Assembly (NCBI GenBank): GCA_025359205.1
Contig: JANYHD010000023.1
Location: 1-64,000 of the forward strand
Source of the DNA: Gammaproteobacteria bacterium
GTDB taxonomy: Bacteria > Pseudomonadota > Gammaproteobacteria > Steroidobacterales > Steroidobacteraceae
Direction: 5' to 3'
Length of the DNA: 64,000 nucleotides
Shown here: positions 43,073 to 45,764 of the stretch, piece by piece
Layout: every line of letters starts with the position of its first letter
How positions within the stretch are numbered: the stretch's first letter is position 1
Position numbers and translations under genes: made by a program
The notes under the pieces: model-generated
Seen by the model: the letters and a program-made list of their open reading frames with translations, nothing else
Told to the model about the DNA's origin: nothing
Databases searched by the model: none

Positions 43073-44392
43073 TCATGACCACAGCCCATGCAGACACCAC
43101 GCGCCACTGCGCAGGTCGTTGTACACCCACAGCTGCGCGCCGTGCTCGCCGCGCGCCAGGTAGTAATCGCGTGCGACGTCGGCGCCGTCCCACCAGCCGC
43201 TCTCGATGCGCTCGGGGCCGGCCAGCAGTTCGCGTGGCATGTCGATGCGGCGCGGTTCCAGCAGCAACCAGCAGGGGCGGTCGGGCGCCTGCGTTGCGGG
43301 CTGTGCAGTGAGTTGCACTGTGAGTTGCGCCGTGGACTGCGCGGCGCGCAGGCGCCAGGCGCGCTCGGGCCGATGATCTGCGCTGCGCTCCAGCGTGCGC
43401 ACCGCGTCGTGGCCGAGGCGCGCGGCAAGCCGGTCGAGCGAGTGCTGGAGCTGCTCGGCCTGTTGCGCCGCGTGTGAAAACATATCGCCTTGCAGCACCA
43501 GCGGCTGCAGCAGTTCGTTGGCCTCGACGCGGAGCCCGTGCACGGGTGCGGCCAGCGTGGTCGCGGCCAGCCGCTCGCGGGCCAGCGCCAGGAACTGCGC
43601 GGCATCGCGGCCGGGCCGGGCGAGGCCGATCGTCAGTTGCGTCGCATCGGCGCGGTGATGTTCGAGGCACAGGCTGTAGCGCTGCACGGCGCGGTCGAGC
43701 GAGCGCAGGTATCCCTGCAGCCCGGCGAGCAGCCGTTGCAGCGGGAACAGCAGCGCCGTGGTGTCGCTGATGGCGCCGGAGAATTCGCAGCGGCTGGCGA
43801 AATGCGCCGGCGCTTGTACGTAGCGCTGCGGTTCGCGCGTGGCGCCACGGAGCCGTTGCAGATACAGGCTGGCGGCGGGGCCAAAGCGCCGTGCGATCGC
43901 AGCCGCGGGGAGCGCCAGCAATGCGCCGATGTGCCGCAGGCCGGCGCCGTGCAGGGCTGCGAGCTGCTCGTCCGGGAGCGAGAGGAACCGGAGCGGGAGC
44001 GGCCCGAGCTGCCGCAGCAGCTGCGCGCGGGTCAGGGCGACGCTGGCGAGCCCGGCGCGCGCCAGGATGGTCGCGCCCTGCGGCGTGGGTGCGATGCCGA
44101 GCCGGAAGCCATAGCCAAGCGGCGTGAGTTCGGTGGCCAGGCGCGCGCGCAGCGCGGTGTGATCGCCGAACAACTGGCGGCTCGCGCCGATCTCGAGCCA
44201 CAGCGCAGCGCCGTGCGCCGCGGCGATGCGCTGTGCATCGTCGCTCCCGGCGCGCGTGCTGACCTGGCTGCTCCATTGCAGCGCCCACAGCGCCAGGGTC
44301 GCGAGCGCTGAGCGCGTGCCGGGCGCAGCGCGTGCGCCGCCGGCCGCGGCCTCAAGCGCAAATTGCGGCAGCAGGATGCATAACCACAGCAT
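43073..44392 (-). CDS. imuB: ImuB, Y-family-like polymerase accessory protein
   Basis: ImuB (439 aa), the hub of the DnaE2 mutasome; related to Y-family polymerases but catalytically dead. The places where active enzymes carry metal-binding acids read LPQFALEAA (instead of a D-x-D motif) and GASRQLFG (instead of SIDE). Finger/palm and little-finger regions follow (LGYGFRLGIAPTPQGATILA; LSLPDEQLAALHGAGLRHIG). QGDMFS near residue 300 resembles the beta-clamp binding motif expected in ImuB. A short Gln/Thr-rich repeat (TAQLTVQLTAQ) and a C-terminal domain ending in WVYNDLRSGAWCLHGLWS close it. Its 5' end overlaps imuA by 41 bp. Confidence 0.93.
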   Translation of the reverse strand: MLWLCILLPQFALEAAAGGARAAPGTRSALATLALWALQWSSQVSTRAGSDDAQRIAAAHGAALWLEIGASRQLFGDHTALRARLATELTPLGYGFRLGIAPTPQGATILARAGLASVALTRAQLLRQLGPLPLRFLSLPDEQLAALHGAGLRHIGALLALPAAAIARRFGPAASLYLQRLRGATREPQRYVQAPAHFASRCEFSGAISDTTALLFPLQRLLAGLQGYLRSLDRAVQRYSLCLEHHRADATQLTIGLARPGRDAAQFLALARERLAATTLAAPVHGLRVEANELLQPLVLQGDMFSHAAQQAEQLQHSLDRLAARLGHDAVRTLERSADHRPERAWRLRAAQSTAQLTVQLTAQPATQAPDRPCWLLLEPRRIDMPRELLAGPERIESGWWDGADVARDYYLARGEHGAQLWVYNDLRSGAWCLHGLWS

Positions 44393-45098
44393 GCGCACGT
44401 CCGCCACGGGCTTTCTGGATTTCGACCTGCAGGCAGCCGGCCACGCTCCGCAATCGCAGTCGCAGCGCCGCGGGCGAGGGCTGTAGTGCCGCGGCCGGCG
44501 GCCGATAGAGCAGGCCGCAGCTGCCGCCGGCCTCGGCCGCGAGCTGGAGCCGCCGCACGCGCCGGTCATCGAGCGATGTGGGCCAGGCGAGCACCGCGCC
44601 GATCGCGGGGCAGCGCAGTGCCTGTTCGATGGCCCACAGCACGGTGCGCGCATCCTGCGCCTGCACGAGCAGGAGACGCTCGAGCGCGAGGCCATGCTGC
44701 GCGAGCGCCGGCGGGTAGGGCAGGCAGGGCGGAGCGATCCACGCCAGGTAGCGTCCCGCGCGGCCAAGCTGCGCGAGCGCCGGCATGAGGAGCGAGAGCT
44801 CGCCGATTCCCTGCGTCTCGGGCATCAGCTCGGTGATCGCCCCCACCGGCCACCCGCCGCCGGGCAGCACCGCATCGAGCTCGGCAAACCCCGTCGGCAG
44901 CGCCACCGGCCGCGCCTGATCGTCGGCGTGGGCGCCCCGCCCCATGCGCTCCAGCCGCGCACGCAACTCATCCCGGTCCAGGCGCGGTGCGGGCTGGCCG
45001 GGGAGCACGTCCGCCAATTTTCCAAAGCGAGTATCGGGGAGCGACGAAAATTGGCGGACGTGCTCCTCGTCCGTCTCATACAACGCCTGTCCCGTCAT
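44352..45098 (-). CDS. imuA: ImuA, SulA/RecA-like mutasome protein, with palindromic N-terminal insertion
   Basis: ImuA (248 aa), the RecA-fold partner of ImuB and DnaE2 in damage-induced mutagenesis. The conserved core begins near residue 68: ALPTGFAELDAVLPGGGWPV, then GAITELMPETQGIGELSLLM and YLAWIAPPCLPYPPALAQHG, ending RLRLRSVAGCLQVEIQKARG. The first ~38 residues are unlike the family: residues 11-33 are encoded by a 65-bp near-complete palindrome (45002-45066) read in frame. The ATG overlaps the lexA stop codon (ATGA), and the 3' end overlaps imuB by 41 bp, so the whole lexA-imuA-imuB set is translationally coupled. Confidence 0.93.
   Translation of the reverse strand: MTGQALYETDEEHVRQFSSLPDTRFGKLADVLPGQPAPRLDRDELRARLERMGRGAHADDQARPVALPTGFAELDAVLPGGGWPVGAITELMPETQGIGELSLLMPALAQLGRAGRYLAWIAPPCLPYPPALAQHGLALERLLLVQAQDARTVLWAIEQALRCPAIGAVLAWPTSLDDRRVRRLQLAAEAGGSCGLLYRPPAAALQPSPAALRLRLRSVAGCLQVEIQKARGGRAHAVVMHPAAAICA
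45002..45066. repeat. 65-bp palindromic element read in frame inside imuA
   Basis: Perfect 21-bp inverted arms at 45002-45022 and 45046-45066 (left arm GGAGCACGTCCGCCAATTTT plus one C) flank a 23-bp loop. It would fold to a strong hairpin in DNA or RNA. It has the look of a REP-type or RPE-type repeat and adds about 22 residues to the ImuA N-terminus without breaking the frame. Confidence 0.92.
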
Positions 45099-45736
45099 GA
45101 CTTGCGTGCCTGGGGCATGCCACTGCGCACGAGCCCGACGACCAGACCCTCGATCACGCAGTGCTGGTGACGCAGGTCGACTTCGATGGGTTGAAAGGCG
45201 GCGTTGGCCGGCTCGAGCCGCAGCAGGTGGCCCTTGCGGCGGTAATACTTGACGGTGGCTTCATCGCCCAGGCGCGCGACGACGATCTGGCCGTTGCTGA
45301 CCTGCGCGGTGCGATGCACGGCGAGGATGTCGCGGTCGTGGATGTCGGCCTCGAGCATGCTCTGGCCGTGCACACGCAGCAGGAAATCGGCGCGCGGGCG
45401 GAACAGCGCCGGATCGAGCAGCAGTTCGTCCTCGACGTTGCCCTGCGCCAGCGTCGGCACGCCCGCCGCCACCCGGCCATAGAGCGCCAGCCGGCGTGTC
45501 AGTGCGAAAGAGGGCTGCAGCAGGCGGATGTTGCGGGCCACGCCGGGTTCGAGCGCGATCAGCCCCTTGAGCGCGAGCGCGCGCAGGTGCTGGTCGATCC
45601 CCTGGCGATTGCGCAGCCCCATGGCGCTGGCGAGATCGGCGCGGGTCGGCGGCCGGCCGTGGCGGCCTAAGTACTGCTCGATCAGTTCCAGCAGCTGGCG
45701 TTGGCGGGGGCTGGGCTCGGTGGTAGCGGCATTCAT
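45095..45736 (-). CDS. lexA: LexA-type SOS repressor
   Basis: LexA-family repressor (213 aa). The N-terminal winged helix runs to about residue 70 (RQRQLLELIEQYLGRHGRPP; LASAMGLRNRQGIDQHLRAL). The self-cleavage site is Ala-Gly in GRVAAGVPTLAQ near 90; the catalytic Ser is in VHGQSMLEADIHDRD near 129 and the Lys in DEATVKYYRRKG near 166. It heads the imuA-imuB-dnaE2 cassette, the arrangement described for LexA2-type repressors. The ATG at 45736 is preferred over one at 45748 because the latter lies inside the palindromic operator. No Shine-Dalgarno is visible, so the transcript may be leaderless or nearly so. It could be the only LexA or a second copy; the window cannot tell. Confidence 0.94.
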   Translation of the reverse strand: MNAATTEPSPRQRQLLELIEQYLGRHGRPPTRADLASAMGLRNRQGIDQHLRALALKGLIALEPGVARNIRLLQPSFALTRRLALYGRVAAGVPTLAQGNVEDELLLDPALFRPRADFLLRVHGQSMLEADIHDRDILAVHRTAQVSNGQIVVARLGDEATVKYYRRKGHLLRLEPANAAFQPIEVDLRHQHCVIEGLVVGLVRSGMPQARKS

Positions 45737-45740
45737 GGTT

Positions 45741-45764
45741 GATACCATACATTTGTCTGGTATC
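45741..45764 (-). promoter_or_regulatory. Predicted LexA operator
   Basis: GATACCA (45741-45747) and TGGTATC (45758-45764) form a perfect 7-bp inverted repeat with a 10-bp spacer; counted as 10-bp arms around ATTT, nine of ten positions pair. It lies 4 bp upstream of the lexA ATG and between the divergent lexA and L,D-transpeptidase genes. It is not the E. coli CTG-N10-CAG box, as expected for cassette-borne LexA proteins. Confidence 0.7.

Follow-up and report, generated by a model that had tools for sequence, protein, structure and literature searches.

Dispersed hairpins with a near-invariant loop and freely varying arms: a palindrome within imuA of a Steroidobacteraceae bacterium and its relatives

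The palindrome that lies within imuA in the window (the whole stretch of DNA analyzed here, 64,000 nt long) belongs to a family of dispersed hairpins, which share a near-invariant 23-nt loop and differ freely in the arms around it. Families of dispersed palindromes are usually recognized by their conserved stems; here the pattern of conservation is reversed. The family is rare and patchy in its distribution and apparently undescribed so far. The reading preferred below, which appears rather probable, is that these are REP-like dispersed hairpins whose loop is recognized on the folded strand and whose arms are rewritten by template switching.

The original prediction had placed two perfect 21-bp inverted arms with a 23-nt loop inside imuA, and all 21/21 pairs between 45002-45022 and 45046-45066 are indeed complementary in the window sequence, with 23 nt between them (Table 1). 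It was equally right about the reading frame: the ORF 44352-45098 (248 aa) stays open across the palindrome, and the ATG of imuA shares bases with the lexA stop. A repeat search of the window gives arm lengths of 64 nt at 78%, and imperfect pairing reaches ~60 nt on each side, decaying outward. Outer arm positions 23-62 form Watson-Crick pairs in 27/40 cases, a value reached by 0/20,000 shuffles; thus, a single hairpin spans the lexA stop, the imuA start, and ~46 ImuA codons. The computed fold of the 151-nt hairpin strand amounts to -92.3 kcal/mol as RNA (z -8.6) and to -49.2 kcal/mol as DNA (z -7.7). The T run typical of an intrinsic terminator was found neither after either arm of the imuA hairpin in the window nor in the group consensuses.

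Table 1. Features of the lexA-imuA region (positions refer to the window)
Feature	Position	Strand	Remarks
Left perfect arm, 21 nt	45002..45022	+	GGAGCACGTCCGCCAATTTTC; locus-specific, other sequence in orthologs
Conserved loop, 23 nt	45023..45045	+	CAAAGCGAGTATCGGGGAGCGAC; portion common to all family copies
Right perfect arm, 21 nt	45046..45066	+	GAAAATTGGCGGACGTGCTCC; complement of left arm
Outer left arm	44959..45001	+	Imperfect pairing with 45067-45109; extends into ImuA codons ~33-46
Outer right arm	45067..45109	+	Imperfect pairing; holds lexA stop and imuA start codon
imuA, SulA/ImuA family, 248 aa	44352..45098	-	~32 extra N-terminal residues from the element
lexA	45095..45748	-	Perfect hairpin arms begin ~28 nt behind the lexA stop

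The palindrome had been taken for a repeat element, and its loop does recur elsewhere in the genome; the repeated unit, however, is the 23-nt loop and not the palindrome with its arms. Searching an 85-mer against the own genome (G000) matched further loop copies, so the segment is not unique; apart from the self match, significant matches cover the loop region only, each matched loop sitting mid-way between different inverted arms. The loop CMAAGCGNRTWDCGKGGAGCGAC is present in ~12 copies in this genome, all with their own locus-specific complementary arms. When the loop core was searched in the pooled loci without requiring arms, hairpins made up 160/202 unique sites. Next to the searched core, these 160 sites have fixed bases (C[ACT] before and C after, with rare exceptions), and the 42 non-hairpin sites, mostly chance matches, have mostly mixed ones. 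Since the flanking bases lie outside the search pattern, their fixation guards against ascertainment. Within the loop, R7 and K13 covary (GG 88, AT 70, AG 2, GT 0).

The arms keep pairing rather than sequence. Among 45 aligned copies, 97.6% of the cells pair compared with 47.3% after shuffling, the covariation score is 1.247 versus 0.236 (sd 0.017), and double changes occur in 22/22 arm pairs, with both sides varying. Stems across the family measure 20-26 bp or more and carry no constant foot motif. Mismatches on the loop strand are G-T rather than A-C at a ratio of 61:13 (averaged over clusters), and the G-T excess lies on the strand reading CMAAGCG in 37 clusters versus 3 (p ~2e-8). Because this excess tracks the CMAAGCG strand while copies occur in both orientations, it points to a single-stranded form of that polarity, DNA or RNA, G-T tolerance being compatible with both.

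A loop-core pattern run on named genome contigs identified at least Luteimonas, Lysobacter, Thermomonas, Halioglobus, Pseudohaliea rubra, and Pandoraea as carriers, and gammaproteobacterial and Burkholderiaceae MAGs were also among the matches listed. Pseudohaliea harbors ~55 copies, the stems of which are mostly 26 bp long and of two types, combined as inverted pairs of unlike members. A covariance model detected copies in 5/15 species of the genus under study, and among 369 sampled genomes of the class the own genome alone had copies. Copies of one genome largely agree in their loop variant: 30/30 listed copies of G069 carry AATTACGTGG, 14/15 copies of G073 carry GTATCGGGG, and G004 has GTTACGGGG at 8/8 listed sites, the orthologs of which read otherwise elsewhere, while G000, G002, and Pseudohaliea each hold two main variants. 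Six 16-nt loop strings had 0 occurrences in the open-access literature searched. Rfam, at gathering score, matched no hairpin among sources that took in an ortholog (L054) and left out the imuA copy itself. Nine loop matches in viral contigs include 0 that pass the filter for arms and are thus chance matches. Members of a pair usually lie ~100-300 bp apart; in Pandoraea terrigena (L124 6690-7456) the distance is 745 bp, and the pair encloses a stretch without a clear gene, which contains further long inverted repeats.

The comparison between species shows that the sites are old and orthologous, not new insertions. The flanks of most copies in the genus align over kilobases, and at the imuA site G001 and G002 have this loop, too, with orientation and frame unchanged and with rewritten arms on either side. 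In 21 comparisons of orthologous sites, the flanks are 82% and the loops 91% identical; arm positions 1-6 are 83% identical, and positions 7-22 only 49%, versus 36% for unrelated copies. Arm changes at these sites are more often double (144) than single (70). When G000 is compared with G002, the fourfold-degenerate sites of lexA and imuA agree at 79-82% and the distal arms (7-22) at ~41-59%, meaning that the arms change in step and faster than near-neutral sites, at a rate that may be overstated by the ungapped comparison. Loop orientation is reversed between species at three sites (clpB-fmdB, greB, and sspB), a finding that depends on the assemblies, most genomes compared being draft MAGs. 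One 3-kb stretch, L025 (G000 C7:35266-38285) versus L276 (G002 C1:4461-7480), is 99.6% identical, unlike the other compared G000/G002 flanks (only ~79-89%); it holds a decayed loop copy, and its near-identity reflects either recent transfer or shared contamination. The imuA copy of G000 and its atpA-atpG copy (L279, the + member at 1805) share a 9-bp apical arm, CCAATTTTC, and have different loop variants; this arm is missing from the atpA ortholog of G002, and an exchange between the loci is possible.

At the imuA locus, an empty site was found in a close relative, G013, whose ImuA reads MTGQALRPTREELRARL. At this place the window protein consists of MTGQALYET, ~32 residues, and RDELRARL, and thus bears ~32 extra residues. 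The site is filled in G000, G001, and G002 and empty in G013, with the frame kept, as for an RPE-like element. The segment is therefore absent from some ImuA orthologs, as a mobile element would predict. The proposal that it was captured as coding sequence holds as far as the kept frame and the empty G013 site are concerned; it does not hold as a recent or imuA-directed event, the site being shared with G001 and G002. An ImuA-core tree pairs, with moderate support, G013 with G000 and G014 with G002, which together with the filled site of G001 makes loss of the element from G013 and G014 the simpler reading of these sequences. Independent gain is less simple but conceivable, given that the imuA hairpin of G001 is set 15 nt more distant from the start codon and has the other loop variant. 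The fmdB copy is likewise missing in G014.

In the genus, most copies are located within some tens of nt behind stops of Pfam-checked neighbors, the distances deriving from heuristic gene calls where these lie away from Pfam matches. Such genes are clpB, fabI, atpA, rpoC, sspB, and greB as well as those for an M16 peptidase, a PPIase, and a CBS protein; further copies lie in the tuf-rpsJ interval or ahead of rpsL. The single pair found in a Halioglobus japonicus genome (L111 796-1013) lies between rpoC and rpsL, an operon region used repeatedly by unrelated lineages (L111 and, in the genus, L274 and L018). A copy at L195 6437-6459 is situated within an ORF with a short-chain dehydrogenase domain and is a possible second in-frame case. 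A UvrA-like ORF across the L085 copy gained no confirmation from Pfam and was dismissed.

A dedicated driver was sought in the carriers. The proposed link to a REP-associated tyrosine transposase (RAYT) failed: Y1_Tnp (PF01797) was not found in this genome or the four other carriers of the genus (G000, G001, G002, G004, and G012 in all), nor in Pseudohaliea and two other positive genomes, whereas some Y1_Tnp occurs in 11/14 positive genomes outside the genus. With many carriers lacking Y1_Tnp, RAYT was rejected as the driver. RVT_1, expected with a DGR target, is absent from G000, G002, G004, G012, and Pseudohaliea (G063), and reverse transcriptases, DGRs, or retrons were discarded as a common factor, as most positive genomes are without RVT_1. 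SbcD exceeds the cut-off in 1/19 positive genomes and is missing from the 10 negative genus members as well, so that lack of SbcCD is at most permissive and was rejected as the cause of the patchiness. An all-against-all comparison of the ORFs of 78 loci returned only ABC ATPases, translation GTPases, and translated repeats as recurring; with no gene recurring beside the copies, a trans factor, if there is one, is unlinked.

According to the preferred reading, the hairpin would act as a folded single strand of CMAAGCG polarity, be it ssDNA exposed during replication or a transcript, and a putative trans-acting factor would read the loop and require of the stem only that it be present. The loop would change in concert genome-wide, following this factor, and replication template switching between the arms would rewrite them, keep their complementarity, and also flip the loop. 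Template switching has been described as homogenizing the arms of inverted repeats while inverting their spacer (PMC8604942) and as a means of maintaining RNA hairpins (PMC8794818). By itself it leaves the loop unfixed, from which selection or a trans factor acting on the loop is deduced; moreover, template switching alone predicts approximately neutral arm change, whereas the observed change is faster. A separate element class is a serious, if less probable, candidate: a dedicated loop-reading trans enzyme or RNA-binding protein would rewrite the arms, flip the loop, and keep one to two variants per genome, and loss of the factor would lead to loss of all sites (G013, G014). A selected mRNA regulatory hairpin (a 3' UTR stabilizer, a device for post-stop ribosome stalling, or translational control of imuA) under ordinary compensatory evolution would fit the location just behind stops, with several copies inside operons (atpA-atpG, tuf-rpsJ, clpB-fmdB, lexA-imuA), the strong fold, and the imuA start in the outer stem, and E. 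coli REPs close behind stops lower translation (as cited in PMC12306157). It is nevertheless unlikely: relative to the upstream gene, the loop strand runs antisense in many cases (lexA, clpB) and sense elsewhere (tuf), the loop flips between species, inverted pairs hold both orientations, the G-T excess tracks the loop strand whatever the orientation of the gene, and arm change outpaces fourfold sites.

Rather improbable is a classical mobile REP/REPIN, i.e. a RAYT-moved non-autonomous hairpin with the imuA copy as a plain insertion captured as coding sequence. Dispersed copies, often in inverted pairs, the empty site of G013, arms conserved within the Luteimonas, Lysobacter, and Halioglobus genomes as after recent spread, and the Y1_Tnp genes outside the genus agree with it; the carriers without Y1_Tnp, the orthology of sites across species, and the freedom of the arms, the expected target of RAYT, without the constant GTAG foot, do not. 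Mobility of the loop alone, where a short core enters pre-existing hairpins or terminators either way round and the arms are host sequence, would explain locus-specific arms, both orientations, and the post-stop position. It is very improbable, given that the empty sites of G013 (imuA) and G014 (fmdB) have no long palindrome (by inspection), that orthologous sites largely conserve the 6 proximal bp of the arm, and that arms of 20-60 nt exceed the length of terminator stems. An assembly or library artifact can hardly be credited. Locus-specific inverted arms around a constant loop are what a hairpin adapter would produce, and one G004 scaffold folds back with N; yet, the copies come from many independent projects, isolate genomes included, they occupy orthologous positions, their arms have diverged, and their loops differ by genome and covary internally. 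For the family as a whole this distribution refutes an artifact. In the scaffold in question (L038, G004 C29:2378) the N falls on the hairpin, which marks a faulty assembly at this element.

Among known systems, REP/BIME sequences (GTAG and CGTC superfamilies, PMC3733652) and REPIN/RAYT (PMC3116915) are similar in being dispersed, mostly extragenic hairpins that tend to follow coding regions, often as inverted pairs of two unlike units, with G-T pairs in the stems and some copies inside genes, DNA repair genes among them. Unlike REPs, whose stems measure 6-13 bp and whose loops mostly 2-15 nt, the present hairpins have stems of 20 bp or more and a loop of 23 nt; the loop is conserved and the stems are free, and the short stem with a GTAG/CGTC foot tag and a short loop was not found in them. 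They also differ from REPINs in that many carriers are without RAYT and in copy number, which is no higher than ~12-55 in the counted genomes. The likeness to Rickettsia palindromic elements (RPEs) drawn by the original prediction applies to the outcome, an in-frame palindrome that gives a protein ~30 more residues, and to nothing beyond it. RPE-4 and RPE-6 correspond to CGTC REPs and are classed by stems (PMC3733652), whereas the constant part here is the loop alone and copies are mostly outside genes. Structure and phylogeny make it unlikely that the imuA element is a member of the known RPE families. Integron attC sites are alike in that the structure of their arms rather than the sequence is kept and one strand is active; however, neither cassettes nor attC core sites were seen here. 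The DGR target-site hairpin is recognized by its loop, with the stem sequence of little matter, and in this resembles the loop hairpins. Its loop and stem are much shorter, though, and it is tied to a reverse transcriptase (PMC3240598). Template-switched quasipalindromes, too, have arms made complementary together and an inverted spacer, but nothing in them (PMC8604942, PMC8794818) demands a conserved spacer, which is the most conserved part here. REP finders at default loop limits, e.g. RepRanger with at most 11 nt (PMC12306157), would miss loops of 23 nt. Orthologous sites with arms changing in step provide natural data on how hairpins are made and kept (template switching versus selection), and the pattern points to a putative loop-reading factor, the search for which could start from the five positive and ten negative species of the genus.

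As the family resides mostly directly behind stops of conserved genes, "behind lexA" is the natural description of the imuA copy, which is translated because imuA starts within the lexA stop. Read through in this way, it would add ~32 residues to a poorly conserved N-terminus, presumably tolerated rather than selected. With the start codon in the outer stem of the modeled fold, the mRNA hairpin might possibly alter ImuA output. At the other end of lexA, a perfect inverted repeat, GATACCA-N10-TGGTATC (45741-45764; 0.03 expected by chance), overlaps the start region and represents a candidate LexA operator for the lexA-imuA operon.
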